Of a DNA stretch of 23,794 bases, positions 760 to 21,611 are shown in pieces. Origin of the DNA: Gracilariopsis chorda (Eukaryota > Rhodophyta > Florideophyceae > Gracilariales > Gracilariaceae); the NCBI GenBank assembly GCA_003194525.1, contig NBIV01000776.1, forward strand, positions 1 through 23,794, in the 5' to 3' direction. The notes beneath the pieces were generated by a model. That model was given only the letters and a program-made list of their open reading frames with translations, had not been told where the DNA came from and did no database searches. Every line of letters starts with the position of its first letter. The first letter of the stretch is position 1. The translations under genes were made by a program, and so were the position numbers.

Positions 760-1124
760 CTGCAGCGAACGGTCAAGTCTCTCAGCAAGCGCATATTTCT
801 TGCCAAATTTGAGTAAGCTGGCTTTTTGAGCCGTTACAGCTGGTTGTTTGTTTAACCGTTTTCGTGGCGAGTAAACTGATTACGCGTTTTCATGTTCCGG
901 TTATCTATTCTATAGCTTTCTGTCTTGAAATTGAGTGGCTCTTGAAGGCAATAGAGCGGATGGTTACCAAGATAGGCGAAGTTTGATATACTCCTTTCCC
1001 CAAAATCGCTACACCTGTCGATTTAGCGACTGAACGGCTACCAAGCCCGAATTGTGTGCCATGAGAACAAAGACCATTGACGGAGATTAGGGTAAAGGTC
1101 AGCAAATGACCAATTGTCATTCTT

Positions 1125-1155
1125 TGCTTATGTGTACAATTTGTAGCCATAAGCA
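1125..1155. repeat. 31-bp imperfect palindrome, copy 1
   Basis: The unit begins TGCTTATG and ends CATAAGCA, so its outer 8 bases are a perfect inverted repeat around an AT-rich centre containing ATTTGTA. A second copy of the same length lies at 1230-1260, and 26 of 31 positions agree by eye. The function is unknown. It could be a protein-binding site, a cruciform-forming element or the end of a small mobile element. Confidence 0.6.
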
Positions 1156-1229
1156 AGAGCTTATGCCACTTGGCAGGCTGAAGGCCATTTCCTTACGATT
1201 GTGAAATCAATGTGGCCAATGAAGTGCTC

Positions 1230-1260
1230 TGCTTATGTAAACTATTTGTATACATAAGCA
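1230..1260. repeat. 31-bp imperfect palindrome, copy 2
   Basis: This is the second copy of the palindrome at 1125-1155, in the same orientation and starting 105 bases further on. Here the inverted arms are slightly longer (TGCTTATGTA against TACATAAGCA). A partial match to the arm (ATGCTTATGTATGCAT) recurs at about 1375-1390. Confidence 0.6.
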
Positions 1261-1538
1261 GTTGGGTTCAAAAGGGTTCAGCGCTTTGAAAATAGATTCC
1301 GCACATTCTTTGATGTCCGGCACAGCATAAAAAAACAGAGTGAAGGACGGATGGCTAACGTATATATATATACGATGCTTATGTATGCATCAATATCGAG
1401 CATATTTTCACTTTTACCGCAGCTCGAGTAGCAGTAAAGAAATACTTTTCTGCCGTAGTGCTGCAAAAGCTTTTGCAGTGCGTACAACTAATAATAACAC
1501 ACTCGAAACACTCGGCTAGAGACGATGAGTGCAAAGTG

Positions 1539-2242
1539 TCAAAAAGAACTCACACAGTTTTTCCTCACTGTCCAATATTCTGCCTTTGCCGGACCGAAAT
1601 ACATCTGCTCATCGCGTTGGACAATTTCGCATTTCGAATCCGCTACAGCCTGAAGGTACTCTTGCTCAAACTTGACAATAGTAGTTGATCGAATAGTAAT
1701 GAGGGCGATTCCGTTCTTACGCAGACAGGCAAGCACATTCGGAAGTGCAGAAGCATCACAATGGCCCTCAACAAATACACCCATGGCAACTGCGATATCC
1801 ATAGCACGGGCCTCTGTTGGCAAAGGATGGTTTATGTCTGCCACAATCAGCTTGTCATAACACTTCTTGTTGCGAGCTTTTCCAGCATTTCGCTACTGAA
1901 GTCGACACCTACTAAGAACGCTGAGATATCGGTGGATTTGAGTCGGTCCGAAACGAGGGTACCCAGGTATCCTGTACCACAACCGACATCCACAAGTTTG
2001 AAGGGCCGCGATATGTTTTCTTCGGAAGCCATGTTGGACATTACGGCGAAGATCTTTTCAGCGCAGATTGGCCATGCGACATAGTCATTGTCAAGAACGT
2101 CCTGCTCGTATGTTTCGGACCATTGAGCATAGACTTTTTGCTTATCCTTCGTGGACATCTTGGTGACTGCCTGCTTGCCGAAACTGCATGAGACAAAGAC
2201 ATCTGTGGCATTCACGTGCCCCTCGGCAGATGGTGGATGCAT
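1539..2242 (-). CDS. METTL27-like SAM-dependent methyltransferase, one frame break
   Basis: A class I S-adenosylmethionine methyltransferase of the METTL27/WBSCR27-like group; the substrate is not predictable. The N-terminal part has the family's YAQWSETYEQDV segment, then motif I LVDVGCGTGYLG, the cofactor-binding glycine loop, and VDFSSEMLEKLA as motif II. In a second frame the protein continues YDKLIVADINHPLP, then VGVF-type sequence VAMGVFVEGH and ITIRSTTIVKF, covering the rest of the Rossmann fold. The two halves are separated by a -1 shift near 1857-1866, explained by one missing A in an AGAAG run. I chose the ATG at 2242 (MHPPSAEGHV) because the same frame upstream looks like untranslated leader; an ATG at 2158 (MSTKDKQK) is a good alternative. 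The length, about 235 residues, is normal for the family, so this may be a live gene with a sequence error. Confidence 0.75.
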
Positions 2243-2377
2243 GGTTGGCTGTTGGTGAGCGTGTACGTGACTCAGGAGTGGGAAGCAAACAAGGAGCGAA
2301 CAGATTCGGGAGTGCGAGTGCGGAAAGACGAGGAGGAGGGCTGATGCGAACGTCGGGCAGGTCGTGCGAACGTTTGC

Positions 2378-2385
2378 TATAAATA
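2378..2385 (-). promoter_or_regulatory. Possible TATA box for the methyltransferase
   Basis: TATTTATA on the minus strand (TATAAATA on the plus strand) lies about 136 bases upstream of the preferred start at 2242. It would place a transcription start at around 2350. The motif alone is weak evidence. Confidence 0.25.
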
Positions 2386-2482
2386 CAAAATTAGAGGATG
2401 AACCATTGGTTTGCGTGCAGAGAAGCTCAGTGGTTACGGTGTCATGCGTTGGAGGCGACCTGTAAGCATTAATGAAGCGCAC

Positions 2483-3691
2483 ATGCTATTCACTGGTAGG
2501 AACAGTACTGTACAAATGTTAAAGAAAAAGCGCAAATAGAGGGCAAGCAAAGCATACGTGTGCTAGAATGTCAATGGGTGGATGAGGACAGCGACGATCC
2601 AGCGCAAAACGTGTTGTGGCTGCGAGCTTCTGTACCATTAAATGCTTCTGATATCAGTTTGTGGTTCAGGACAGCGATTAAATCAGTCGTCTGGACCATG
2701 GGCTGCAGACAGAACAAGGCGTTGACTGAGCACACTTGCACCGCACCACCGCCACAGCAGTCACGGGAACGATATCCGTCGTGCTGACGATGAGAAAGCT
2801 GCATGCCGCCCACGGCACGCGAGGAGACACGTTTGCAGTTGTGTACACGTACTTTCGTGTAACAGCGTCACGTCTGTGTCGTCACTGCGCACCACGAGTC
2901 CTTTCAGAGCCCGGAACCTGTCGGGCGTTGAGCACTTGGTGCGTCCACCAACGCCTTGTCTCAAGCGTGAAGCCCTACTGAGTTTTGTTGCTCATGCAAA
3001 CATATCGACCACATGTTTACCGTGCGTGCCAAGAAATGTGCAGTTTTAAAATTAAAAAAAGTGCAGTGGGAACATTAGAAACGCACAACTCCGCTCGCGA
3101 GCGGAAGGGAAGATGCAACTCTTGCACTAACATTTTGTGTTTTTGGTTAAGGGTTACCGAAGGGTAGCATTCCAAAACTCAACTCAAATCAATAACGGCT
3201 ATGTCATTCTTGTACGAGTGGCGTACCTACCCTTACATTTGTGATGCTGGCAGACTGTTTTTGCAGCACCAGAAACGTTGCGTTGATGCTGTTGCGCAAG
3301 AAAGCTCATGGACATGGCGTCTAAGAAACAGCTGTACCAAACGTCATGTCGAACATGAATTCTCAATCCCGACATCCTTCAATGGCCAACAACAGTACCC
3401 TTGGGTAATTCCAAGTTCGAGTTTTGCAAAGTGAACAACAGAGCACAAACACCGGACTGAGTCCTGCGATGGCTCTACGTGCGCGGAAACGGCGTGTGAG
3501 CTGAACCCTTCGCATGTTTATTGTTAGAGAAATGTACATTGGCCAGCACACATGTCGCACGTATTCCAGAAAGGAAACACCGGGCAAGCAAGGGCGTAAG
3601 CGCATCATTTTAGAAGTTCCAGCCGCAACAGCGACTTTCGCACCTTCACGCGCCCCAAAACGCCCGGACGTACACGCTCGTGATACCCGAA
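2483..3691. other. Long intergenic stretch, nothing recognised
   Basis: Several 60-110 codon open frames overlap on both strands, with no family motifs and no agreement between strands. I see no RNA gene or terminal repeat. A short sequence near 3153-3166 (ACCGAAGGGTAGC) is the reverse complement of one near 14419-14431, possibly a shared fragment of an unnamed repeat. Confidence 0.35.
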
Positions 3692-4223
3692 ATGGCTTCA
3701 ATATCGTCCTCGGTTGTCATCTCATCCCTCCTTGCCCTCATGCACCTCAAGCTCAACGTCAGCAATTCCTACCGACCGCAGCGTCATCATCAAATTTCAA
3801 ACCGACCTACGAACGATCGGATGGCCTCTCATTATTGACGGCGACTACGGACCCGCCACCACTGCTGCCGTCAAAAGATTTCAAACTGGGTGGGCCTTCA
3901 AGCTATTAACCACTGACGGCGATGCCGGGCCCCTGACCCGCCCCGAAATCGCCAGATGTGCCGCAGAGGGCAGCTATGCCAGCCAGCATGTCAAGCAGTC
4001 GGAGTTCAAATCCAGAGGCTATGGCGATATTCGAGTTGTGCGCGAGCTGCTGTTTGGGCTGGAGAAGCTGAGGGAAGCCATGGGTGGCAAATCGCTTACA
4101 ATCTGGTCAGGTTATCGCGACTCAGCGCATAATGCGCGGGTGGATGGTGCCAGTAGGTCACAGCATCTTTTGGGAACCGCAGCGGATATCCCGCAGAGCT
4201 ATGGCGCTACACCGCTTTCGTGA
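3692..4223 (+). CDS. Secreted peptidoglycan-binding plus M15 D-Ala-D-Ala peptidase-like protein, damaged
   Basis: This resembles bacterial zinc D-Ala-D-Ala carboxypeptidases that pair an N-terminal peptidoglycan-binding domain with a Peptidase_M15-type domain. The ATG at 3692 opens a signal-peptide-like stretch (MASISSSVVISSLLALMHL). The mature domain lies one frame over, from about 3780, so a +1 shift or a very small intron ending at the CCGCAG near 3775-3780 is needed. The binding domain shows WPLIIDGDYGPATTAAVKRFQ-type sequence. The catalytic domain shows SGYRDSAHNARVDGASRSQH followed by LLGTAAD, whose His and Asp are expected zinc ligands. The frame stops at 4221, before the third ligand (a late HVDVR-like motif). 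A plausible continuation LKVIIGIDIR lies in another frame to 4270, with no later His motif. Family call good; integrity doubtful. It is probably an old bacterial acquisition. Confidence 0.72.
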
Positions 4224-4286
4224 AGGGATTGAAGGTGATCATAGGCATCGACATTAGGTTACACATGTAGATGTGCTTGCAGGAGA

Positions 4287-5023
4287 TCCTTCCAGGCCGA
4301 CTACTTGGCTGTATCCTTGCTAGAGAGGTTATTGAACTCATGTTAGTGTCACCCTCCAGGAACATCCGTGGACAGCTTGGGTGCATGCAATCCAACAGCA
4401 TGTGCTCCATGTGAAGTTCACCCGCTTCTAGCCAACTCGGCTTCATCCAAATTTGAGATGCCTAGAACCATCAGCGATAACGTTGGCAAGGCCATGAAGA
4501 TTGGCAGGTGTGGTATTTTAATGTTTCAGGAGTTTACTGGTATGGTTTACGATCATTTCTTATCATTATCTTGCTGATTAGCGCCTTTAGATAATTTCTG
4601 CAAAAGCCCTAGACCCGTAGGAAGTATTTCAAATGGCTTCTTCATGAGATTTATCCACAAGGCTCCAGCATGTTTTAATCCCACGTTCTCAGCCGGTTCA
4701 AACATCTGTAATGTGCTTCTCGAGCTATCCTTCGGTAACTCCGTAACTCGCACATGATACTGCGCGCAACCGCCACCGCTTTCGAGCAAAGGAACGTAGA
4801 AAATCCATAGCACTGCTCTAGTGTGCACCAAATTCCTAGGTTCCTTCCGCTCTTCTCCTTCGCTCTGTGCCTCTTTGTGCCGTCAATACGGTAAACTTCC
4901 ATGTAATTCTGTCTTATGTCAGCAAACACATTGCCGACTCACCTGGCCGCATGGTGTTAGCGCCTGCTGCGTTACAACGCTGCGAAGACAGCCGGATTTT
5001 TTTTCGTGCAAGAGAGTGAGGTG
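4287..5023. other. Intergenic stretch left of the Harbinger element
   Basis: No gene is assigned. On the minus strand two overlapping frames (4929 to 4675 and 4831 to 4553) give protein-like composition, for example RNLGIWCTLEQC and then HAGALWINLMKKPFEILP. They could be halves of one frameshifted relic, but I recognise no family and cannot choose a start. Confidence 0.3.
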
Positions 5024-5049
5024 CTCTCTCTCTCTCTCTCTCTCTCTCT
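5024..5049. repeat. (CT)13 microsatellite
   Basis: Thirteen uninterrupted CT dinucleotides end exactly where the TAA beside the left Harbinger end begins. The element may therefore have inserted at the edge of a simple repeat. Confidence 0.95.
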
Positions 5050-5051
5050 AA

Positions 5052-5069
5052 GGGCCGTTCTATGACTTT
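5052..5069 (+). repeat. Left terminal inverted repeat of Harbinger element
   Basis: Eighteen bases, GGGCCGTTCTATGACTTT, identical to the reverse complement of 13527-13544. A weaker match extends inward to about base 5099. The TAA outside is the proposed target-site duplication. Confidence 0.85.
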
Positions 5070-5220
5070 ATTTACGCGAAAAAGTGAACGCGAAGTCTGA
5101 AGACGTCCAATAAAACGACAACACGTTGCAAAACATGCTTACCAAATTTCATTTCCGTCTGCAGCCCACAAGTTTCCGCAGTCATGTGAACAAGACCTTA
5201 ACTCATCTGCATACCCTTGC

Positions 5221-5721
5221 TTGTTGAGTGACCTCCTTCCAATCAACTTTTACAAGATGATGGACACAAGCGCAGTTTACGCCGTCGGCTCGAATACGTC
5301 ACAACACCACGAGCAGCATAACTCTTCTTCCTACTTGGAGAGATTATTGACTAGCCAACATGATTCAACCCAATCAGACACAATTAAAGCGCCCAAAACA
5401 GTCAAGAAAGCTGAATGTTTGATCAAAGCCGCTTAACTTGATAATCAGAAATGCAAGGCTATTGTCAAAGAGTTGAAGATAATAGGCGAACAGAACGCTC
5501 GCCTATCAACCAAACAACTTCTGCTAGCACGTAAGATGGTGCAAAGATCGTTAACATCCAGCAGATTAGAAAACTGAGTACTGACCACCTAAATTCTAAC
5601 CACAAACAATGATCGGACGCAGGAACTTGCATCACTACGGTGAGAATTGTTTGCAGAGAAAATGGTGATGAAGAAACTGAATAAGTAAGAGGAGACGTAC
5701 CAATTATTACGAATGGAGTTG
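5221..5721 (+). pseudogene. Decayed coiled-coil reading frame, unknown family
   Basis: A single frame from 5221 keeps coiled-coil-like composition across about 165 codons while crossing six stop codons, the first at 5434. Recognisable stretches include KCKAIVKELKIIGEQNARL, DRTQELASLR and AEKMVMKKLNK. It ends just before the proposed start of the Myb/SANT-like gene at 5745, in the same direction. It may be a relic of an additional element-encoded protein or an older nested insertion. I do not recognise the family, and the call rests only on composition that persists through the stops. Confidence 0.3.
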
Positions 5722-5744
5722 TAGCTGTAGATCTTTCGACTAAT

Positions 5745-6623
5745 ATGTCTCAAGAACAAAGTGCAACTCAGAGTGGTGACAGAAGACCTGCCTTTGAAGC
5801 AGTAGAGTATTGTCGTTTACTTCATGTACTGGGAGATGTTTGAATGACAGCGAAAAGACAGAGATTTGATGCAATCCATGTCTCGGGATCAACTGGATTG
5901 GCAACAAGATTACCCATGGTCTGTTACAATAGCGCCGCTTTTTCAATGACGAAAGGTTCAAACCAAAGGCGAACACCGTTCTCTCGGGAGGAGTTACGCT
6001 GGATGATATCATAGCAATTGGCCCAGCAAAACGACCACATATACGGGACGGTGGAGTGTGGAAGCGGAAGTTTGGAGAGTTCAAAAGTGTTTACGGAACA
6101 TGTGTTTCTCGTTTTGAAGCATCAGGACAAGGAGATCCCGATGCATTTGCGAGCTTCGCTGACGGGAAATCATATATTATGTATGCATACTGTTACTTAC
6201 AATTGAATCCTATTCTGCAACCATTGGCCACTCGTGTGCTGAGCGCAGATGTGCAAAGAGAAGAGGGCGTGGGTGAAGGTGTGTCTCCGTATGGGTACAG
6301 TGGGCGTCAGGTTTTGCGTCATCCTCCAAAACGATGTAAGGCAGATTCGCGGGAGGTTAATATCGTTTGAGTAGAAAAGCCTTATATCCGCTCTGCGTTC
6401 TAACGAGGAAATCGTAGACGACGTTTGTAAGCGGTCAGAAAAGAGAAAACGCTCGTTTGAGGAAATGGATGCGGCATCACGGGCTAGTAGATCAACTTTG
6501 CAGGCGTTGAGTGAAGCGAAGCAGATGCATGCAAAAGCGAATACAGAACAAGAGAGGAATCTTCTGCAGGGAATCATAGACAAACTTCTAATTCAGCTTG
6601 CACAGGCAGAGGCTGCCATGTGA
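5745..6623 (+). pseudogene. Myb/SANT-like accessory protein of Harbinger element, broken
   Basis: Harbinger elements need a second, DNA-binding protein of the Myb/SANT-like (trihelix) type alongside the transposase. ATG 5745 opens MSQEQSATQSG, with EYCRLLHVLGD typical of the start of such proteins in this position. The body then moves to frame 1 (DLMQSMSRDQLDWQQDYPW, about 5850-5940) and to frame 2 from about 5940. There the core reads FNDERFKPKANTVLSGGVTL and VWKRKFGEFKSVYG, then RFEASGQGDPDAFASF and a tyrosine-rich YIMYAYCYLQ, to a stop at 6370. A C-terminal coiled coil with a basic KRSEKRKRSFEEMD stretch continues in frame 0 to TGA 6621. One shift is in a run of five T near 5939. At least three frame breaks make this copy inactive unless the sequence is in error. 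Family assignment is by characteristic segments. Confidence 0.65.
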
Positions 6624-6783
6624 CGTTTACATTGAGCAGCATTGCGGTTTATGCACAACGTCTGTGATGATTTGCAATGCTTGCAATAAGTGTTCAACCT
6701 GCAAGTTTATTCGTCTTCAATGTCATTGCAGAACGGTGGCGGGCCATCATAATCTTATCCACGTCTGCAAAGAAAAGCTATAA
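6598..6783 (+). other. Short cysteine-rich open frame, possible zinc-binding peptide
   Basis: Overlapping the last codons of the Myb/SANT-like gene in another frame, an open stretch of about 60 codons has unusually dense Cys and His: CGLC, then CNACNKCSTCK, CHC, HH and a final C. The spacing would suit zinc binding. There is no ATG at its start, so it would need a fused upstream exon or a frame shift from the preceding gene. It may be the true C-terminus of that protein in an intact copy, or chance. Function unknown. Confidence 0.25.
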
Positions 6784-6995
6784 CTGCCATGGATAACCGG
6801 GCGCGGGTGAACTCCGTCCATAAATCTGTCACATATACTCCAGCCGAAAGGGTTCCGACGCTCCAATGTAGTACCAGAGGAGCGCTTATTTCTCGTTTAG
6901 CAAAGGCGTTGCGATACATTCAAGGACGAGCACAATGCTATTAGATATGATTTGTTTGATGAACCGAGGGGTTCTCTGTGGCAACCATAGGACTG

Positions 6996-7678
6996 TCATA
7001 GGAGCAATTCAGGGGCAATATACTGCGGTGTGCCAACCATGTCCGTTGCGTTCACGTTGTGAGCATTGGTATCCGCGATGCCAAAATCAGGGAGCTTCAC
7101 AGTGGGGTCTTTGCTTTCAGAAAAATAGAGAATGTTCTCCGGTTTGACATCGCGATGGGCAATACCATGAAGATGGAGATGAGCAAGTGCGCGCACCAAC
7201 GAGCGCGCAACAGTGACAATGTCATTTTCGCAATATCGGGGATAATATCGCTCTCTGTCAGTGAGTCTAGGCAGCATTTGTCCGCCCGTAAGCAGTTCCA
7301 TGACGATATAAATGAATCGTTCATCCTCATAAATTCCCGAGGACTGAAAAAAGAATGGAGTGGCTCTGCATGGCACGAAAGGCGAGAACCTCGCGACAAT
7401 CACCAGACTGTGGGCAGAACAAATCCGGAGCGCCCTTGGAAATAATCTTAATAGCGGCACGAACAGAAGAATCGTTAATGGATTCACAAAAGACGCACTT
7501 CTGAACAGGCACCCATACCGAGTCGAGTACTAAGCTTCCAGAAGTGATCAATGGATCCGCGACGATACAAGGCAGGTCCAGCCGCCTGCTCCACCCGGGA
7601 ACGCAAAAGCAACTGAGTTGCACTCCATGTATTTCTATCAAAGACTGGGCTAAGATAATTGGCGTAAACCTCTCCCAC
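6996..7678 (-). pseudogene. Protein kinase fragment (CAMK-like), truncated
   Basis: The segment covers a eukaryotic Ser/Thr kinase domain from the glycine loop to the APE motif, in three frames. First comes RLGMGACSEVR, the GxGxxxxV nucleotide loop (about 7530-7490). After a shift near 7490 come VRAAIKIISK, with the ATP-anchoring Lys, and a degenerate helix C. After a second shift in a T6 run near 7345 come IYIVMELLTGGQ, the catalytic loop HRDVKPENIL, DFG within VKLPDFGIAD, and VGTPQYIAPELLL. A stop at 6996 removes the rest of the C-lobe, and no helix F-I sequence follows. MELLTGG and the HRD loop context suggest the CAMK group, as a weak call. All catalytic motifs survive, but the missing C-lobe and frame breaks make it non-functional as it stands. 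It lies inside the proposed Harbinger element, between the two transposon genes. Confidence 0.75.
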
Positions 7679-8820
7679 AATCCCGTTAGCGTTTACATTA
7701 GCATCATCCGCAAGCGACGTCGAGGACTTTTCAGTATGACCGTAAGACTGAAGTGACTGAAAAGTAAAACGTAAGCCAAATTGAGCGGCGGCTGGTGGGC
7801 AGCTGCAGAGGCAAGTGAATCATTTCTGGGAACATTTGTGCTTCCTACTCTGGAAAAATGTTCGGAGGTGACGCGCTCAATGCGTAAACCAAATTTGCTC
7901 GGTAAGGCACTCATAGCACCATACTGGAGTTGCGCGCCGGCGGCAATCGGTCCGAGTCGGCGCGATGCACAGAGGCTGTTCGAAAGGAGGAATACAGATG
8001 GGCGGCATCTTCAAGCTTGGAACGGGCGGATAGCGGAGGTCTCGCGCGCGTTGGCGGTGGTGGGGTGTAGTTGGGACGTGGGGGGCGGCCGTTGAGCGGT
8101 CGCGCTGGAGCTGGAGCTGGCAGTGGCGGTGGCGGGAGAGGTCGCTGCAGGCCGTGTAAACGCGCAAAGTGACTGAGCGGAGGTAATGGCGGAGGTGGTG
8201 GCGGAGGTGGAGGGCGAGGGGAGGCGCTGGTTGAGGCCGTGGTGGTGGCAGTGCCGGGGCTGGTTCTGGGGGCGGGAAGGGCGGTGGCAGTATCAACGGC
8301 GTGGCGGGGGTGGTGGAAAGGGAGAGGAGATGGTGAGAGAGCGCGCCAAAGAGGGCGCCCGACCACGCTTACGTGGCTTGGGTGGTGAAGCTGATTGTGG
8401 TGTATTGGGTCGCGGCACAGAGACAGAGTCTGGCGGGTGATGGGGGAGCGAGTGCAACCACTGGAGTACGTGGGCCTCGGAGGAGGAGAGGGGAGAGAGG
8501 GGAGAGAGAGGGAGAGAGAGGGGACGGTGGCGGGGCGGGGGAGACGGTGGCGGGGCGGGGGAGACGGGCATGGGGCGAGGGGCGATGAAAGAGGGGGAGG
8601 GGAAGAGGAAGAGAAGGGGTGAGGGGGAGAAGGGACGATCGATGCATATGGTGTGGACTGGCGTGCGTGTGGGTGTGCGAGAGAGATGGGCGAGGCGGAA
8701 CCGTTTCGACAGCGAGGTGCGTGCAGCGGTGCGACTACGCGCAGTGGCTGTGGTTGCACGGGCGGCTCTCACGTGGCGCTTCAAAACACAGGCAAAGTTT
8801 ACGGACTACGGTACCAAATA
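7679..8820. other. G-rich low-complexity block between kinase and esterase
   Basis: From about 8080 to 8640 the plus strand is strongly purine- and G-rich, with GGA/GGT and (GA)n runs; the minus strand is correspondingly C-rich. Long open frames here, including a minus-strand proline-rich one at 8759-7911, follow from the lack of A and T rather than from protein selection. From 7680 to 7914 the minus strand may hold the kinase's original N-terminal region, but no motif shows this. No gene is called. Confidence 0.5.
8523..8562 (+). repeat. Perfect 20-bp tandem duplication with G-quadruplex potential
   Basis: GACGGTGGCGGGGCGGGGGA occurs twice with no gap. Each copy has two runs of four or more G, so the pair, with the following GGG and GGGG, could fold as a G-quadruplex. 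It sits in the purine-rich block. Confidence 0.8.
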
Positions 8821-10288
8821 TTAATCAGCGTCCCTTCCGGGCAGCGACTGCTTGAGGCTCAGCTTGCTGAGCAGCGCCGGTTGCGTCGCTCGGTACTCCT
8901 CTTCCACGCGACTCACGCGTTTGAACAGCCGCGCCTGGGCTGTGGACGACGACGACGACGACGGCGGCGATGACGAGGGCGATGGTGTCGGTGCGTATAG
9001 CTGGTCGACGAGGTGATGCACGACGCGTCGGCCGCTGGCATTCATCCAGGTATGCATCATGTTGCGACTCATGGCGACGATGCGGTTGTGTGCCAGCGGC
9101 GCCGGCATGGGGAAGTCCACCCCGATCACGGTCCATCCTGCGGCGCGAAGGCGTGCCGCCATGACGCGTTCCACAGACTCGCCATCGTGCAGCTGTGCGC
9201 GCTGGTCGCGAACGAGAGCGCCACCGTCTGCCGCGGGTGCGTATTCGAGCTCGAAACACACCCGACATCCCTTTTCGTCTGCGTCTTTGTCTTCGTCGAT
9301 AGTGGTAGCGCCAAATCCCTTCATAACGTGCTCCAACGTATCGCCGGATATTTGCCTTATATCCTCGTCGAGCGCGGCCGTGCCGTAATTAACCATGAAG
9401 TCGTTTCGCAAGTTGGCGTACAACACCATTTGCCGGAACGCCATGATGGCGGACATGAAAGCGCCGCCCTTTGCGTGCGTGTTACGCGTCATGAGTTCCA
9501 ATAAACAGTCCTCATCCGGCAGGAGCAGCTGCTTCGCCGTGTTGAACAAAAAGGCAGTGTGCTATGGGAATCATACTCTGGAGAAACCTGTACACACCAA
9601 ACTGACGCACACCCAAATTGGGACTGGCTACCATCACTATCTTATCAGCGGTCAGACCGGCTATCTTACCAGTTTGCTGGTCGTACAGGTGTGCAACGGC
9701 GTAGCGGACGTACATCCCACGCAGCGAGAAGCCAACGAGAGATATGGACTGTAAGGAGCTATGCTTGGCGACGGTGTGGCGGATGTCCTCCGCCAGCCTC
9801 AACCCTCCAAGGTCATTTCCGTCGTGCGTCTTGTCGGTGTTGACTCTACTAGCATGCACCAGTATTCTGCCAGAGGACACCTCATCCGTACTGTCCAACG
9901 TCTCCAACAGGTACGAAAAGTCCTCAACGGTGCCCTGCAAGCCGTGCGACAGCACGAGGATGGATGTCGGTGGCTGGTGCTTGTGCTCCAAAAATGGGGC
10001 GTTCGGTTTGGTAGCTGCCATCGATTGGGTGTGCGATCTTCGTAGCAACGGGAGCGGGGACGATGATCTAGGCAGTCGAATGCCGTGCAGCGGGCTGGAA
10101 AGGCGCGCAATGATCTGAGAGAGATTCTTTCGCGGCTTTTGGCGGGGAGATGTCACGGAGTCGACGCTATCACTAGGCTGCTTGGCGGCAGAAAGATTAG
10201 TGCGGTTTTCGGAGTTATTTTCTTCGCGAACGGAGCGCAGAAGGGCCTGAGCAAAGGACGGCGCCATGGAGCAACGGACAAATGGCAT
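8821..10288 (-). CDS. DUF676-type putative serine esterase/lipase, one frame break
   Basis: An alpha/beta-hydrolase of the DUF676 putative serine esterase family, predicted to cleave an ester or lipid substrate. From ATG 10288 (or 10267, MAPSFAQALL) there is a Ser/Arg-rich leader of about 110 residues. Then come LVLSHGLQGTVEDFSYLLE, the oxyanion-side motif; HASRVNTDKTHDG; GGLRLAEDI; and the nucleophile elbow VGFSLRGMYVRYA. ASPNLGVRQFGVYRFL follows. A shift at about 9548-9552, beside a run of five A on the plus strand, moves the frame. The second half then reads KQLLLPDEDCLLELM, GGAFMSAIMAFRQMVLYANL and NDFMVNYGTAAL, and later VVHHLVDQL, near where the catalytic His is expected. The elbow has Arg where the family has Gly (GxSxG becomes GFSLR), which could be inactivating. 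At about 490 residues it is close to full length. It lies inside the proposed Harbinger element. Confidence 0.78.
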
Positions 10289-10911
10289 GGTGCGTTAGAA
10301 ACAACGAAATCGTTATTGAAGTGATGTGGGCTGTGGTGGTGGCGCTATGATAGATATGGCGGAAGGGCGCGAAGCTGCCAATTGTGCACATGTAACACTA
10401 CCGTTGGTAGCGATGCGCCGTAAGTAGAGTTAGCGGTGAGGAGGCGGACTGCTTTGCAGTGCACCGTGTGCCATTTTGTCAGCGGCAGCCAGCGCGCAGC
10501 TGTCCTGTTCATGAGCATGTGCCGATATTATGCACGTGTAACACGCTTCTGCTCATCTGCCGCACCCTGCGCCACCGACGCCCCTATCATACGCGATCAA
10601 CGCGCCATTCACGCGTGCAGCGCAGCGGCCGCCGTGCGAGCCGTTGCCGCTGCCTTATGAAGCCGCCCGCATTGCGAGCAGCGCAAGCGCTCACTCTCCT
10701 CCTCAAAACGCTCCTGCAGTCCGCCATATATGCCGTCGTTCTGCGCGATGGGCGCGCATGCGATGTCGCCCTGGCTAACCTCCTTCTCCACCATCGATCG
10801 GACAACAAGCCCCTTCTCTTCTCCCCACAACGATAAGCGCACCTACCTCGCACGGCCAATCCATCATGTCAATCCCTCATTCACATCATAACCCCCGACA
10901 ACCGAGCTCCA
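10289..10911. other. Upstream region of the esterase, weak minus-strand frame
   Basis: This holds the esterase's likely promoter, with no clear TATA box. On the minus strand, 10842 to 10609 gives 77 codons with mostly G/C third positions and a plausible protein segment (SQGDIACAPIAQNDGIYGG, then a CSQC pair), but no ATG at its start and no family I know. It could be an exon of a small gene, since a GAG/GTAGGT donor-like site lies just upstream, but this is unproven. Confidence 0.25.
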
Positions 10912-11571
10912 TTGCGCCCTTATGCAGCCACTGCTATTCATCACCAAGTCAGTCACCTCGCCATTGGCACCACCCGGCTTGAACGAGGTGTAACCGCCGT
11001 CACTTCAATCTCCGCCAATCCGATCTGCGGCGATGCGTCCACTGGAATTGAAATGCTCCCGAAAGGAACGCTCACCTTCCATGAGCCCCTTTCCACCGTT
11101 GATCACGCCACAATTTGCTCAACCGTACAAGAAAACGTCCCACCCGAATACAATCGAACCGCCGATCCTACCTTCATGCCTCCTCAACTCATTCAAGCCG
11201 CTTTGCAACTCGCCAATCAGAAGAAATTTTCCCTCCAATTACTGCAACACCAATCCGATGACTTGCTGCGCAATAGCGTGCTTGAAAGCAGTCAATGGAG
11301 CTATATCGTCGCCCCAACCGACATGCTTTACGAAACATTCAACTCCAGAGGCGCTCCAAGACTGGCCGTCATCCATGCTGCGCAACGAATGTGTCTGCAT
11401 GTTTCAGGTTCCGCAAAATCGCTTTCGCGGGATGAACCACAGGTCAATCGTGTCTGCGAGACCGTATTCAAACCGTCAGCCGACAATAACATACAGGACC
11501 TGCCAGAGGGAAGAACTGCTGCTGGCGTCGTGTTGCGTCCGGCCACTGGTCGCTTTGGGAGAAGATTGTGA
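10912..11571 (+). CDS. Hypothetical protein, about 170-220 residues
   Basis: A 220-codon open frame; the first ATG is at 11053, giving about 172 residues. The middle looks like folded protein, with an amphipathic stretch PPQLIQAALQLANQKKFSLQ and then SSQWSYIVAPTDMLYETF. I recognise no domain, signal peptide or membrane segment. A second frame (11033-11590) is also open over the same bases, so part of the openness may reflect C-rich composition. It lies inside the proposed Harbinger element, between the esterase upstream region and the transposase, and is not a known Harbinger protein. Treat it as a possible gene only. Confidence 0.3.
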   Translation: MRPYAATAIHHQVSHLAIGTTRLERGVTAVTSISANPICGDASTGIEMLPKGTLTFHEPLSTVDHATICSTVQENVPPEYNRTADPTFMPPQLIQAALQLANQKKFSLQLLQHQSDDLLRNSVLESSQWSYIVAPTDMLYETFNSRGAPRLAVIHAAQRMCLHVSGSAKSLSRDEPQVNRVCETVFKPSADNNIQDLPEGRTAAGVVLRPATGRFGRRL

Positions 11572-12106
11572 ACTGGTAATAATCATTTGATGATGCTAAC
11601 CAGGGAACCGGATCATGACACGCCAAGCCTCTTATCCACCCGTTTGAGAAGTAATTATGCGTGCGCCCCGTTGCATGAGCAACAGTACGTGTACTGTGAT
11701 AATCGTTTCGTAAAGCTTGCTGCACCGACATCCATCCTGGACACACACCACAATTGAGCGCTCAGCGCGTATTTGAAGCCGCGTTCCGTCCCGTGTCGCA
11801 GCATAAGCAACAGATGGCTTATTGCACGTTGTACATACGTCAGCTGCGTCGTTCACATTGCGACCTCATGACGTTGGTGTCCAATCGAGTACGACAGTTC
11901 CACCCACGTTGGAGTGCATTCGTGCATTGCCCGTCGTGTTTCAGACGAAAGCTGGCTCACGTGCTACGGTAAATCTTGTCATCCCTCGCAAGCGTGTCTG
12001 CTGAGTCAAGTGGAATTTCTCATCTACTTTTTCATCATCAGCTCTCCATATAACACCGCTAAAGTGCGCCGTTTTCTCACAATGCTCTGAACATGTCCCT
12101 CACAAT
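11572..12106. other. Unassigned DNA downstream of the Harbinger transposase
   Basis: No gene is called. Small open frames overlap on both strands at 11632-11972. The minus-strand one carries a CTTC and a CVQDGCRC cluster but has no ATG and no known family. No second copy of the terminal repeat is seen here that would close a smaller element around the transposase. Confidence 0.35.
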
Positions 12107-13419
12107 TCAGCAGGCTCTTCGTCTAATAAGCCCCATTCTCTGCAGATTGTCTGCCAGTTCATCTCTCAGCAAAGAGCTCTCTCTGGCACGGTTTCTAGCG
12201 CGCATATTATCTCGCTCGGTATGTAATCTGTCTTGGAAGTGAACTACGGGAGTTCCGGCTACATGGTTGTCCTCATGATGAGGAATATATTCATAAAAAC
12301 TTTCGTTAGCGTAGTCAATTAGGAAGTTGTGTAACTTACAAGCCACCATAATTATAAGAGTAGTTTGACGCAAAGAATATCTTATCGCAGACCAGAAGAT
12401 ACCGAAACGACATATCAGCATTCCAAATGCCTGCTCCACGCATGATCGCGTTAAAGAATGATATGTATTATACGCGTCTTGTTTTGGTGTGAGGTTTCGA
12501 CAACAGTAAGGCGTTAAAACTCTAGACTTGTTTGAGTACGCATCGTCCGCCACGACCGCCGCCCACGTTGACAGTTCGTCACCATGCAGTAGATTGAAGA
12601 GTTTTGTATTACTGAAAGCAGTAGAATCATGAGTCCCACCAGAATGGCGGGCTGACACAAACGAGAATTTGTAGTTTGCCTGTACTGTTGCTTGCACACA
12701 AATAGCAAAAAACTTCTTACGGTTGTAATACTTCTTTGGATCCGGCGCGTCTTGCAGAGTAGGGCAACGAATTTCAATTGCAATTCCGTCCAACGCAGCG
12801 ATGATACCATGAAAAGGACTGTTTCTCAAGCACTGAAAAAGTTCTGCTCGTTCTGAACACTCTTGTTCTGTGACTGGAAATTGTAGTTAGGGCAAAATAC
12901 AATCCAAGGATAGTAGTGTCTCAGAAAAATATGGTACACCGTTGAAGTTGCAATACCATACGGCCACGAAACGTCAAGATAACTTGCTCCTGCTAGCATT
13001 CTTAAAGTAACAAACAGCATAACTGAAGGATGTAGAGAACGTGCAATGTTAGAAACGTTATTCTGGCGTCGTTGTATTCTGGTTTGTACTTTAGATAGCA
13101 GAAACAAAAATTGAGATTTGGAAACACGGTACATCCTCTTGAACATAATGTCGGAAATACTCTCAAGATGTGCTTGTTTATCAAACAATCTTCGAGGTAG
13201 GACGCATCGGAATGCTCGATTGTCGGTTTTTTCAAGTTGCGCGTATATTATAGTCCACATACTGTGGTAAATACACATCATCGTAGTTCGTCTTCGTTTG
13301 TTTTCCTTCGTAGGCTTTTGAAATGCTTGATTTCGGACGAGGTTGAGGACAATGGTAGTGCTCGGAGAAAGAGTGAGTCGAGTCATGATATGGAATTGGA
13401 GGGATGAATACTCTTCCAC
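12107..13419 (-). pseudogene. PIF/Harbinger transposase, one frame break
   Basis: The DDE_Tnp_4-type transposase that cuts and joins Harbinger ends. The N-terminal half (13419-12826) contains SDIMFKRMYRVSKSQFLFLL and the helix-turn-helix-like GASYLDVSWPYGIATSTVYH. The catalytic half shows the first Asp in IIAALDGIAIEI and YYNRKKFFAICVQ, then SFVSARHSGGTHDSTAF. The second Asp is in VVADDAYSN and the Glu in SLTRSCVEQAFGMLICRFG, so the DDE triad appears present. A single -1 shift at about 12876-12877, explained by one missing C in a CC run, separates the halves; across it the sequence reads smoothly (TEQECSERAELF). The combined length, about 430 residues, is normal. The start is uncertain: the frame has no ATG at 13419, and 13386 is the first Met. 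If the shift is a sequence error, this transposase could be intact. Confidence 0.85.
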
Positions 13420-13526
13420 ATGTAATGGAAATGTCCTTCCAGCTTTGTCCTCCTTTCCATTGAGACAACAAAAATGGACAGAAATCGAAAGTTTTTTAAT
13501 TCAAAGTTAACCGTTCACAGTTTAAG

Positions 13527-13544
13527 AAAGTCATAGAACGGCCC
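13527..13544 (-). repeat. Right terminal inverted repeat of Harbinger element
   Basis: Exact inverse of 5052-5069, followed by TAA at 13545-13547. It lies about 110-140 bases upstream of the transposase reading frame, the usual distance in these elements. Confidence 0.85.
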
Positions 13545-13767
13545 TAACCTAAGTAAGGATTTGTGCGACAACGACCTTCGCACCCCTTAAAAAATTAGTA
13601 AAATGCACGATTTCGTTTTTTGTCGCAAACTGCGCCAGCACCCAAACTCTTGCTTCACGTTGATTTTTTGAGCCTTTTGGTTCGACAACTTTTTGCGCCA
13701 ATGAGAATCAAACGTTTTGGACAACCAAAATATTTGATTCTCAGGTTTGTGACCGCTCAAGCTCGGG

Positions 13768-13905
13768 CCCTATCACTCTTTCCTGCAGGCAAGATGCAGA
13801 CATCACAACTGCAGGAAACTGTGGTAAGGCGGCGCTACCACTATTTACTGCAGGCAAGATGCAAATGTCACAACTGCAGGAAAGAGTGGTAGGGCCGAAG
13901 GCCCT
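13768..13905. repeat. Two tandem hairpins plus a short palindrome
   Basis: Hairpin 1 pairs 13768-13788 with 13809-13829 around a 20-base loop; hairpin 2 pairs 13835-13853 with 13874-13894 around a 20-base loop. The loops are near-identical (GCAAGATGCAGACATCACAA and GCAAGATGCAAATGTCACAA), and all arms are built on CTGCAG plus an AGAGTGGTA-like segment. Five bases separate the hairpins. A further palindrome, AGGGCCGAAGGCCCT, follows at 13891-13905. It could be a foldback or non-autonomous transposon end, or a structured RNA; no gene is linked to it. Confidence 0.75.
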
Positions 13906-16072: not shown

Positions 16073-16606
16073 TCACAGAACGACAAAGCCAGGATCAGCC
16101 GAATTTGCCACCGACAACAGAATACAAGGATGCACTTTCGAAACGCACTCCACATCATGAACAAGTCCTTGCGGAATGAGAGCAACCTCTCTGGCCCTAA
16201 CCACATTAGTGACCCTCCTCAGAACAGTGGCCAAACTAGGATCAGATTCAAAAGTAAAGCTTATCTTCGCCGCGCCACGCACAACATTAATTACTTCGTT
16301 GCCTCGCGGATGCAACTGCGTTGCCAATCTGGAGCCCGGCTGCATAACGAATCGCAACAACCTGGTCTGAATATCCACTGCACCGAGCACTGGGAATTGT
16401 TGAGCCTCCAGTGACTGTACGGAGTAGTCGGGGAATGTTGATAGCCTTGCTTCGGCGTACGGGAGACGAAAGGCAGAATCGTTGAAGGCATTGCGAACTT
16501 CAAAGGCGGTTTGACTCCCGCGGCTGGGGATTCGAGCGTGCGAGAAAGTGAGGAACGCGAGCACAGGCAGCAGGAGCGCAAGGTGTGGCGCACTGGAGCG
16601 AGTCAT
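16073..16606 (-). CDS. Germin-like cupin, secreted
   Basis: A single-domain germin-like protein of the cupin_1 family, a secreted beta-barrel that usually binds a metal and may act as oxidase, dismutase or wall protein. ATG 16606 starts a clear signal peptide (MTRSSAPHLALLLPVLAFLT). Germin box 1 is present with canonical spacing, GSRLATQLHPRGNEVINVV then RG, except that the first metal-binding His is Gln. Box 2 reads EVALIPQGLVHDVEC and keeps the P-x-G-x-x-H pattern with the His. The protein ends at DPGFVVL, about 20-40 residues earlier than typical germins (177 in total), so the C-terminal helices are missing or never existed here. No frame break is seen, and this is the cleanest complete gene in the window. 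The substrate and metal state cannot be predicted, and loss of one ligand weakens the case for metal catalysis. Confidence 0.85.
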   Translation of the reverse strand: MTRSSAPHLALLLPVLAFLTFSHARIPSRGSQTAFEVRNAFNDSAFRLPYAEARLSTFPDYSVQSLEAQQFPVLGAVDIQTRLLRFVMQPGSRLATQLHPRGNEVINVVRGAAKISFTFESDPSLATVLRRVTNVVRAREVALIPQGLVHDVECVSKVHPCILLSVANSADPGFVVL

Positions 16607-16992
16607 TGCGGGAGGTGGGAGGCAGGGGCAACGGGGAGGTAGCGAAGAAGCTCAGACGTGATGAGCCGTGACGCACGCCGTTTTATGCGCGAGATTTGGA
16701 GCGGAATACAGTTGCACACCCCGTTGTACACCGTGGCCACAACCAGAGGCGTCTAACAGTTCTCTTCCAATCACAATAAAGGAATTACGCAACACGAATT
16801 TCGTAGCGTTTTTCGTAGAAACGTATGACACGCAGTACAGGGTACTAAAAACAGGATGAGATACGAAATCTGTTGTCGTAGATTTCAGAAAGATACAAAA
16901 CTGCTTTTCGTGGCTGTGCTAAAAGAAGAAAGCAACTGATTGCACTTCAGTGGGCACAGCCAAGCTCACATCATAACCAAACCAAGTGCAAC
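16607..16992. other. Upstream region of the germin-like gene
   Basis: No gene is seen. The minus strand has CATAAAA at 16687-16681, about 75 bases upstream of the germin-like start, which could serve as a TATA-type element. The remainder has no repeats or motifs I can name. Confidence 0.35.
16681..16687 (-). promoter_or_regulatory. Possible TATA-like element of the germin-like gene
   Basis: CATAAAA on the minus strand within GCGCATAAAACGG, about 75 bases before ATG 16606. This is a reasonable distance for a short 5' leader; it is a motif match only. Confidence 0.3.
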
Positions 16993-18488: not shown

Positions 18489-20670
18489 ATGCAGACACGT
18501 GACGCAAACGTGGAGTCGACCGCAAGGGTCGATGTCGAAAAAGAATTGGCTCCGTCCGGCGAGCCACCAATGCAGACCGCTTCGGACAATGCCTCGGTTG
18601 GCCGCCGCAGCACCCGTAGCACTGCACCAGCTCCGGACGTCCGATTGGAGAACCCCGAGGTGCTCGTGCGCAAAGCTCCTCGCTCCTCCCGGGCTTCTCA
18701 AACGCCTACCGACCGGAATTTAGGCCCGTCAATGAACCCAGAGGGTGCAGCACCGCTCCCTCTACTCGCCACTCCGACCGGCCTAGTGGCAGCCGAAATT
18801 CCCGCACGGACGCTCCCAGAACTGTGGAAGCAGCTCGAGCCCTATTGGGGTTACAAGCTGAAGAGCGAGCTTGCTGCTCGTGTCCCCGTTCGGGTTGAGC
18901 GCTACCTGCAGGAGCGCCTGCCAGAACTGCTGGCAGAACTGATTACCCCGACGGTCCGCCAGACCACCGAGGCAATCCTTCAGCAGCTCCTTCCGACCGG
19001 ACTTGGTGCCATGAAGCACGAGGACCGTACGGCAGTTTATACGGCAGCGACAACGCTGCCACCCTTCCCAAGTTTTCCCTTGGCCGACCGGACCAAGCCC
19101 AATTACACACCGGACGGGATGAGGAACCCCACCCAGAAGGGGGCCATCAGAGTGCCCCCATGGTCCCAGTCCTCCCGGTGGAACCCCACCGAGATGATCC
19201 GAACGGAAATTCAGACAGCTCCTCTTCTAACGAAGGAAGAGGGGGCCGCCGTGACAGGGCGGCAGAGCTGACAAGTCCGACACGGATCGCCCTCGCCGCG
19301 CACGGAAGAATCGTCGCCGCAGGAAAAAGCGACATTCCTCCGGTTCGGATACTGATTCTGACCGCTCGGATAGTTCCGATGCCGTTTCCGGAACTGATAG
19401 CGACTCAGACTCCGACCGTTCTGGCCGCAGAGGCCGCTCCGACCGGTATCGTTCCCGTTCGGAAAGATCCGCGCCTCGGCGCATCAAACCACTGAACGAA
19501 TTGTTCACCAGGGTGGTGAATTATCGTACGTACCGGCTAACCAATCGTAGCCAATCGTACAACTCGCGAGTCGCGCGTAAGATTACGCGCTACCAGAAGA
19601 AACTGAATGTCCAGATGAAGGGACATTCGTTTTCCGGAGCGGATCCGATATCCGTTCTAAACTTTTTACAGCGGTTCAAGACCGCCTGTAACCATAACGG
19701 ACTGTCCGAGGGAGCAGCGGTATGGTGCTTCCAATTCTACCTGACCGGACCGGCTCACTCACTGATCCAGTCACGGCTCATGGGAGAGTCAGGCGCCGTG
19801 GATGTACGACGTGGCGAGATGCTCCGCTCATACTCCGAAGTCGTCAACTTTTTATTGACAACGTACGCAACGGATGAAATAATTGCCGACGCGTACTCCG
19901 AGGTCACCCTCTACCGTCAGTCGTCGGGTATGTCCGAAACGGAGTATTCACAGAAGCTGTGGAACAAGGCCCTCCGTTGTGGCAATGTATTCTCCGACCG
20001 GCGTTTAAAGTCCCTATTCGTGGAAGGATTACTTCCTTCCATTCGGGCGAAGGTGAGAAATCACCTTACGACGCATCCGTCCATCGGCTATGATGCGTTG
20101 GCGAGGTATGCCGAATCGTATGGCGACACCAGCCGTTCGGTACGACGACAATCCGTTCGGCTTGACTCCCTTCCCCATCCCACGGGGAAAAGGGTGGCCG
20201 CTCGTACAGACCGTCGGAGTGTCCTAAGCATGGGGAGCCGTACGGATTCGGTAGCCTCCGACACCGATGACGGTGAGGCCGTCCTGGCATTTACCCAGGT
20301 CGGCTCCGCCCCATCACCCCCCACGACGCCGTCAACAGCGACGACCTCGTACCGTTCGGGACCCTCCCGATCGGATTTTTATAAGCCTGCTGACGCTCGG
20401 GCACCAACAAACCGACAGCCGGACGGGAAGCAGTTGATGGACAAACCGTGTCGGATTTGTCTGTCACGGGAACCGGACCACTGTCAAATGATCCCTCCGA
20501 ACGTTCGGGATGCTCTGCTAGCCGCTCGGGAACAAAACTACCAACTTCGCAAAGAAGAGGGTTACTACAACCGTAACACTCCCGGTCGGTCCAGCATTGG
20601 GGTCCGGACCCTGGGTCAGCAGACTCCGAACGGAAACCTCCTGCATACGATCACGTCAACCGCTCAATAA
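18489..20670 (+). CDS. gag: gypsy Gag polyprotein, two frame breaks
   Basis: The capsid/nucleocapsid precursor that packages element RNA. The first ATG is at 18489. The N-terminal region is Ser/Arg/Pro-rich and followed by a helical segment (LWKQLEPYWGYKLKSELA, then RVERYLQERLPELLAEL). After -1 shifts near 19118 and 19255 comes an Arg/Ser- and Asp/Ser-rich linker resembling an RS domain (SDTDSDRSDSS, RSDRYRSRSERS). The Retrotrans_gag capsid region starts near 19600: MKGHSFSGADPISVLNFLQR, AVWCFQFYLTGPAHSLI, YRQSSGMSETEYSQKLW. Near the end CRICLSREPDHC is a C-x2-C-x6-H-C cluster, perhaps a variant zinc knuckle. Translation ends at TAA 20668. Both shifts lie near G runs or repeats and may be errors. 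The long RS-like linker is unusual. Confidence 0.75.
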
Positions 20671-20800
20671 TGGCCGTTAAAGATCACGGCATGTCCGAGT
20701 CGGAAAACGATGTGGAGGGAGCGTAGAGGCAACGCCCCCTCCGAGGTCGGAACGCCTCACCCGAACGAACGGTTTAGATTCTTCGCCCAAGCCGGACGAA

Positions 20801-21562
20801 GTGTACGTTGTGGATGAGTATGAGCCGACAGCCCCAGTGGCCCTTTTAAAGAATACCCACTATAAGATAAACTTTTCTGTGGGATTCTCCCGCTCGGTCT
20901 TGTACCCCCTCACCGGTGTACTTGACACCGGCGCTGGCCCTAACCTCATCCACGAACGGAACCTCTCCCCTAATTGGGAGGAGCATCTCCAATCCCGTTC
21001 GTTCACCAACATCACGGATGCCTCTCGGAATCGTATGAACATCCGTGGTGTTGTTCCCCTACTCGTACACATCGGAGCTCTAACCGTTCGGATCCCCTTT
21101 CTCGTTGCCACCAACCTCGGGGCCAGTTGTATTCTCGGTACTTCTTTTATCGATAAGTACGTCATGGCAATACTACCCCCGAAACGGACAATAATCTTAC
21201 GTCACTCCCACCCCGTGGCGATTCAATCTTCTGCCGGTCGGTCCTCTCGCTCGCCGGGAGAGCACGTACCGGCTACAACTCGGAAGACCCCTTCTAATAA
21301 GATACGGGTCGCCCGACCGGTCGTCATACCCCCCATGTCGGAATCATCCGTCCGGGTAACCACCAAGGCGGCCGGCCTTGCATTTTTGCAAGGATATCAC
21401 CGTTCGGCTAGCCGGCAGGAGTTAACCCTCCTGGCCAATGGCATCATGGAACTCCGTCCGGACGTACCATTTTACGTCCAAGTGGCGAACTTTTCCGACC
21501 GTCCGGTACGCTTACACAAGCGTACAATCATCGGATTAGCTCTACCCTCCCCATCGCGTTAA
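20801..21562 (+). CDS. gypsy aspartic protease region of Pol
   Basis: A retropepsin-like protease that would process Gag-Pol. VLDTGAGPNLI carries the catalytic D-T-G, and ASCILGTSFIDKY is the expected ILGxDF-like partner strand. After the protease come about 130 residues of linker containing the PFYVQVANFSDRPVRLHKRT segment that precedes reverse transcriptase in many gypsy elements. The frame is open from before 20801 and differs from the gag frame, so expression would need frameshifting, or a lost base between 20670 and 20800. It stops at TAA 21560, about 50 bases before the reverse transcriptase frame. Confidence 0.82.
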   Translation: MYVVDEYEPTAPVALLKNTHYKINFSVGFSRSVLYPLTGVLDTGAGPNLIHERNLSPNWEEHLQSRSFTNITDASRNRMNIRGVVPLLVHIGALTVRIPFLVATNLGASCILGTSFIDKYVMAILPPKRTIILRHSHPVAIQSSAGRSSRSPGEHVPATTRKTPSNKIRVARPVVIPPMSESSVRVTTKAAGLAFLQGYHRSASRQELTLLANGIMELRPDVPFYVQVANFSDRPVRLHKRTIIGLALPSPSR

Positions 21563-21577
21563 TCACACCGGAATTTC

Positions 21578-21592
21578 CGTCACGGAGTGACG
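21578..21592 (+). other. Short stem-loop in the protease-RT junction
   Basis: CGTCAC, loop GGA, GTGACG: a perfect 6-bp stem in the 49-base gap between the protease stop and the reverse transcriptase frame, followed by a purine run (AAGGAGGGGGA). It might influence readthrough or reinitiation, or be chance. Confidence 0.3.
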
Positions 21593-21611
21593 AAACTAAG
21601 GAGGGGGACCC

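Follow-up and report, generated by a model that had tools for sequence, protein, structure and literature searches.

How does a cut-and-paste transposon come to hold several kilobases of host DNA between its own two genes? In the available parts of two papers on the subject, the way in which such transposons acquire genes is described as not known or as perplexing (PMC3260210, PMC8277862). The question is raised here by an element in the red alga Gracilariopsis chorda (assembly GCA_003194525.1, contig NBIV01000776.1, positions 1 to 23,794). This stretch, referred to below as the window, makes up the whole of contig C754 in an assembly of 91.3 Mb and 1081 contigs, and all other C-numbers denote contigs of the same assembly. 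An earlier note on this DNA had proposed that a single Harbinger transposon carries host cargo between its two transposition genes. We confirmed that the window holds one PIF/Harbinger DNA transposon of 8.5 kb, with terminal inverted repeats (TIRs), two convergent genes, and a host-derived interior. The proposal is supported by a donor locus free of Harbinger sequence, by copies elsewhere with the same ends and junctions, and by TWA target site duplications.

The element is bounded by an exact inverted pair at 5052-5069 and 13527-13544 (18 bp, or 19 bp counting one duplication base), and 21 of 22 positions match when 5051-5072 and 13524-13545 are compared in inverted orientation. This pair, which had already been noticed together with a TAA outside each end, has no counterpart in the window among exact inverted 18-mers separated by more than 1 kb (its two registers being counted as one pair), and a single one of 200 first-order Markov sequences held any comparable pair. 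The TIR sequence begins GGGCCG, and the 3-bp TWA duplications read TAA on both sides in the window, C41, C36, and C208 and TTA on both sides in C258. The inward-pointing gene at the right end, on the minus strand, had been called a DDE transposase, and its match to DDE_Tnp_4 bears this out (Pfam; E=2e-25, profile positions 1-158 of 158). The TWA duplication, the DDE_Tnp_4-type transposase, and the short TIRs place the element in PIF/Harbinger.

The second gene, which we call the accessory gene, was expected to be Myb/SANT-like. It does point inward from the left end and is conserved across the family (at least 91 places in the genome among the matches listed), and its protein has six database relatives, one of them from Chondrus crispus. 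The Myb/SANT part of the expectation found no support, however: Pfam gave no match to the 145-aa piece readable in the window and no Myb/SANT match to the relatives, a comparison with PDB sequences gave no match below E 0.7, and an AlphaFold2 model built from seven sequences (mean predicted local distance difference test score of 51, with a confident helical stretch at about residues 106 to 235) gave no Foldseek fold match at E <= 0.001. We therefore treat the label as a guess from position that is not confirmed. The suggestion that the element is potentially autonomous likewise fails for the window copy, where the transposase is split between frames 12110-12886 and 12829-13500 and the left gene is also interrupted, but to judge from its reading frames it would hold in form for C258, where both genes are open, over 506 and 464 aa between stops. 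The accessory gene is open over 506 aa in C108 as well, and C41, an element of 8.1 kb, has both an accessory gene of 464 aa and a transposase of 445 aa open.

The interior of the window element has its source at another locus. Positions 428500-438000 of C11 align solely to window positions 6982-11979 (4,998 bp, 94%) and have no match to the Harbinger arms. This locus contains open reading frames (ORFs) of 1011 aa, with a full kinase domain, of 490 aa, for an esterase, and of 519 aa; the captured shares are 1781 of 3033 nt, 1470 of 1470 nt, and 1433 of 1557 nt, respectively, and the donor kinase ORF extends past the captured part. A kinase fragment and an esterase gene had been noticed in the middle of the element, and both are borne out by kinase and DUF676 matches on the minus strand, the latter obtained on the window copy rather than on the C11 ORF. 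The best species-named database match of the native C11 esterase is from Agarophyton chilense. Because the cargo spans ORFs of both strands together with the DNA between them, its template was genomic DNA and not RNA. The earlier note had held that a kinase gene beside an esterase gene without Harbinger sequence, in a related genome, would speak against a single element. Just this arrangement occurs at C11, in the same genome, but we read it as the donor rather than as a refutation because a complete element also exists elsewhere.

Copies of the element were found throughout the assembly. On many contigs a left end is accompanied by a right end, as a proposed search for paired ends would have it (at least 40 left and at least 36 right matches among those listed). 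Cargo of the C11 type is near complete in C754, C576, C554, C772, C402, and C258 and partial in C223, C282, C1033, C108, and others. Six of these contigs (C754, C554, C576, C772, C402, and C1033) have a left flank in common and would thus be alleles or duplicated contigs or regions of one insertion; identity to the window element is 99.4 to 99.5% in C554 and C576 and 97.5 to 97.7% in C772 and C402. The flanks of C258, C282, C108, and C223 differ from those of the window. C108 (199664-203530) has a left end only and C223 (140565-145184) a right end only, and the C11-type cargo ends at query position 2285 in the former and begins at 2281 in the latter, such that the two are possibly halves of a single element that was interrupted by a later insertion or divided at a contig break. 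Counting these as one, the composite is inserted at no fewer than four sites. Both capture junctions of the window recur in C258 and the right one in C223 and C282, and the C108 match crosses the left one. Because copies at other sites share capture junctions, we concluded that capture preceded spread; with these junctions shared, and with TAA or TTA duplications at different sites, the composite moved as a unit.

A search for an empty site had also been proposed; for the window insertion, the joined flanks gave 41 listed matches, none of which is an empty site. Six contigs (C754, C554, C576, C402, C1033, and C772) carry the element at the left junction and five of them at the right one as well, C1033 ending earlier, and the right flank is itself a repeat starting at the same base. 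A match in C262 (query 327-570, 89%), made up of some CT repeat and the right-flank repeat, was rejected as an empty site, the left flank being missing. The repeat at 13545-13764 has at least 29 other copies among the matches listed, nearly all beginning within a few bases of the right duplication, which would put the Harbinger at the edge of another repeat. For C41, the flanks joined with one TAA (219 bases) gave a full-length 100% match at three places among those listed, all 40 listed places of 835 candidates match at >=99%, and the uninterrupted copies carry a single TAA. Because these copies match the joined flanks almost identically, C41 must have inserted with its cargo into a recently spread repeat, and a cargo-laden element thus appears from these alignments to have moved recently.

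Sister subfamilies carry other host cargo at the same place between the two genes, and ten donor loci, C11 included, were identified in all. C41 holds EF-hand/glyoxalase and valyl-tRNA synthetase pieces from C140 and C108, and the same cargo is present at full length in C180, C270, and C91. C36 and C208 have the arms and outer cargo of C41 with 3.5 kb of C112 DNA in the middle. The cargo of C96 consists of pieces of C234 (TIMELESS) and C174 (O-methyltransferase), and that of C8, C240, and C44 includes pieces of C59 (WD40) and C16 (E2 acyltransferase), with a C166 piece in C8 and C240 and a C259 piece (aminotransferase V/MOSC) in C8 besides. In C282, six donors (C59, C16, C259, C166, C234, and C11) form one chain. 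C240 and C44 also hold DNA for which no donor was identified. Part of it in C44 is a DDE_Tnp_1_7 transposase gene, which we take to be piggyBac-like, and a frame in C240 resembles that gene by eye. Nine donor stretches of 1.4 to 9.5 kb gave no alignment to the element arms. The tenth donor, C112, lies outside the nine stretches fetched, and its contig has no listed end, transposase, or accessory match. On other donor contigs the nearest listed family matches are distant from the donor: an accessory place at 300 kb versus 431 kb in C11, a transposase at 5 kb versus 102 kb in C234, and a left end at 200 kb versus 56 to 60 kb in C108. With ends that pair on many contigs and nine donor stretches free of arms, a composite of two separate elements was rejected.

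The arrangement of these pieces is layered. Donors follow one another in the order A-B-A in C41 (C108/C140/C108), C36 (C108/C112/C108), and C96 (C234/C174/C234). Positions 1066-4969 of the C108 stretch form the outer cargo of both C41 and C36; C41 lacks 1627-2710, replaced by 2,030 bp of C140, and C36 lacks 1377-4495, replaced by C112 DNA. In the same way C96 lacks C234 positions 3439-4045, replaced by C174 DNA. C8 retains C16 up to 1297 and C166 from 570 with C259 between them, whereas C240 retains C16 to at least 2501 (the end of the stretch) and C166 from 312. The replaced middles in C41, C36, C96, and C8 therefore point to four refillings that removed inner cargo and kept outer cargo. We viewed seven donor-donor junctions by eye, base by base, and found identity of 0 to 4 bp or short filler, with neither a duplication nor an inverted repeat around the inner pieces. 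Long homology at the switch points, raised by BLAST overlaps of up to 16 bp, was rejected on the same views. Synonymous divergence (dS) from the donor is 0.082 for the outer and 0.052 for the inner cargo of C41, which makes the inner cargo the younger, and C96 points weakly in the same direction (0.124 and 0.101). Most cargo copies bear frameshifts or stops, and the ratio of nonsynonymous to synonymous divergence (dN/dS) between cargo and donor ORFs ranged from 0.37 to 1.00 over 38 comparisons across subfamilies, with values >=0.49 in all but one (kinase pairs in C223 and C282 gave no match and are outside this set). From these ratios, the cargo seems to evolve without clear constraint.

The space between the two genes is of variable size. 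Convergent pairs of accessory and transposase genes less than 26 kb apart number 72, with a median spacing of 5.1 kb: 4 at 29 bp, 18 at 0.3 to 2.2 kb, 45 at 3.1 to 8.2 kb, and 5 at more than 14 kb. The pairs were drawn from 88 accessory places (91 rows, split frames merged) and 89 transposase places (148 rows, split frames merged and weaker or partial rows left out); the place and pair counts are lower bounds that include alleles and nested insertions, and cargo was identified in the named subfamilies only. In four compact relatives (C128, C54, C188, and C4:573k) the transposase and accessory genes lie 29 bp apart without cargo. These are gene pairs only, TIRs having been sought and not found in C128 and C54, and they are no more than candidate cargo-free forms of the element. 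We think it probable that the space between the genes is a recurrent slot in this algal lineage: elements retaining both genes would lose their middle and fill it again, time after time, with kilobases of host DNA, the nested layers recording successive repairs, and such elements would have moved recently.

The best explanation, to which we give a probability of roughly 80%, is that internal gaps were filled repeatedly by template switching and the composite was then amplified. A gap would arise inside the element, most simply in repair after excision of a copy, and would be filled by synthesis from both ends, which would switch to an unrelated locus at little or no homology and then rejoin the element. 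Both ends and both genes would be retained, the middle would become host DNA, and the composite would transpose afterwards. A later gap within the cargo would take away the core of what had been captured before and be refilled from another locus, giving donor A, donor B, donor A. We favor gap filling with template switching because the ends are kept while the middle is replaced, the donors are still present, there is little homology at the switches, and refilling is repeated.

Several observations weigh against this explanation or its details. The C108 donor is partly repetitive, since a small piece of it in C41 (cargo 103-664) also matches at least 19 other rows at 84 to 85%, and the C174 piece has a longer, weaker match in C26 (82%). 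An excess of microhomology cannot be demonstrated from as few as seven junctions. The dS difference in C96 is small, and C8 shows no younger inner layer (0.170 and 0.129 for the inner C259 ORFs, 0.147 for the outer E2 piece). The shared C16 (E2) piece itself has a dS of 0.147 in C8, 0.080 in C240, and 0.085 in C44, and because it varies in this way among copies, dS is a poor clock here and the order of the layers rests mainly on geometry. The dN/dS range is compatible with weak constraint in single copies. Finally, excision-linked repair is not separated here from in-place break repair or from switching at a replication fork.

This last point bears on the rival that survives best, namely that gaps were filled, or forks stalled and switched templates, independently of transposition in a resident element that transposed later (the models of Tan et al. 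2021). It overlaps with our explanation, sharing the template switching and differing in that the break does not come from excision, and the internal breakpoints and short microhomology described in the available parts of PMC8277862 resemble the junctions found here. We hold it possible but the less likely course, for many captures in one recently mobile family suit excision-linked breaks, without proving them. A different published model, known to us from partial text, is the tandem-hybrid capture described for Pack-CACTA, in which two elements flank host DNA and their outer ends are fused by aberrant excision or deletion. It too would yield host DNA between element halves. The nine donor stretches are armless, however, with their genes still in place, and A-B-A cargo from different contigs would require repeated nested events, which makes this model unlikely. 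It is very improbable that the interior was not captured at all, the C11-like loci deriving from the transposon or the cargo being old accessory genes. Harbinger relatives are known to have accessory genes (TET/JBP in rusts and SET in HarbingerS, according to the accessible portion of PMC12730594), but several donor ORFs here are longer than their captured parts (kinase, valyl-tRNA synthetase, and TIMELESS), the cargo differs among the subfamilies examined, and its stops, frameshifts, and dN/dS values are those given above. That an assembly chimera joined transposon ends to host genes is scarcely credible, even in a fragmented assembly and with one short contig as the window, given the same joins on several contigs at different insertion sites, duplications that agree at both ends, and uninterrupted copies of the C41 target.

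Table 1. Features of the transposon and its captured interior (window positions)
Feature	Position	Strand	Remarks
Left target site duplication, TAA	5049..5051		C258 copy has TTA on both sides
Left TIR	5052..5072	+	First 18 bp exact
Left Harbinger arm with accessory gene	5052..6981	+	Common to C8, C240, and C44 up to 6980/6981
Longest readable piece of accessory gene	5933..6367	+	145 aa; no Pfam match
Captured host segment	6982..11979		Single contiguous copy of C11, 94%
Captured protein kinase gene, readable part	6999..7529	-	Native ORF 1011 aa; 1781/3033 nt captured
Captured DUF676 esterase gene	8824..10294	-	Whole ORF present, frameshifted; native ORF 490 aa
Captured third host ORF, readable part	10837..11571	+	Interrupted; native 519 aa; no Pfam match
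Right Harbinger arm	11980..13544	-	Common to C96 from 11974 and to C8, C44, and C240 from 12016
DDE transposase gene	12110..13500	-	Divided between two frames; undivided in C258 (464 aa)
Right TIR	13524..13544	-	Inverted match to left end
Right target site duplication, TAA	13545..13547		Matches left TAA

Outside the element, the window contains an ORF at 3684-4220 with M15 peptidase and peptidoglycan-binding domains, which is unusual in a eukaryote and may be a bacterial acquisition. A 131-bp unit with 23-bp inverted arms, consisting mostly of two 65-bp direct repeats, lies at 13766-13896, and a Cupin-domain ORF at 16076-16651 on the minus strand. Retroelement parts, presumably Gypsy-like, occupy 20681-23035 (aspartyl protease, reverse transcriptase, and RNase H matches), preceded by an ORF at 19255-20667 for which a Pfam search gave no match.

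A literature search of open-access papers found no paper on Rhodophyta and gene capture, and layered cargo in a Harbinger element was not the topic of any title or abstract among the open-access matches listed. The donors lie in one genome together with elements set apart by successive rounds of filling, so that it is possible to read how large the gap-filling steps were and in what order they came. The family also exhibits multigene and whole-ORF capture by transposase-bearing elements, which surveys that set such elements aside would miss. If the reading of the space as a recurrent slot is true and general, gene capture would regularly accompany autonomous transposition as a by-product, rather than being a trait of decayed passengers.

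The element resembles other PIF/Harbinger (PHIS) transposons in its TWA duplication, its short TIRs starting with G, and its DDE transposase with a second gene. For these, autonomous consensus sequences average about 4.1 kb, and the first base of the short TIRs is usually A or G, in the parts of PMC4482050 available. It departs from them in its 8.5-kb length, its host DNA in the middle, and a second protein without a recognized Myb/SANT domain. Harbinger-type elements with an extra gene, TET/JBP or SET, are described in PMC12730594, but in the sections accessible one gene class recurs there, whereas here the cargo is unrelated, decaying host DNA that differs among the subfamilies examined. Maize Ds elements with filler DNA likewise contain gene pieces as interior filler, for which replication errors in break repair have been suggested as the cause; these are hAT elements, however, non-autonomous and with a modal length of about 1 kb in the largest class (PMC3260210, in part). 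The animal Pack-TIRs, for which gap-filling and FoSTeST models were proposed, share internal breakpoints, short microhomology, and template switching with our family, but the available text of PMC8277862 contained no case in which earlier cargo is serially refilled from new donors. Similar in behavior are Pack-TYPE elements, with Pack-PIF of maize and rice among them, in which host gene pieces between TIRs are amplified by transposition (PMC8903248, from the portion available). As in those, host gene DNA lies here between TIRs with its donor elsewhere in the genome and has been amplified as a unit. Unlike those, both element genes are kept and the cargo is layered and kilobases long. Pack-TYPE elements are defined as non-autonomous, and the same survey, in that portion, classed any transposase-matching element as autonomous; the window copy would be non-autonomous in practice, whereas C258 and C41, with both genes open, would not be. 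On these comparisons, the family would be Pack-like by behavior and PIF/Harbinger by type.

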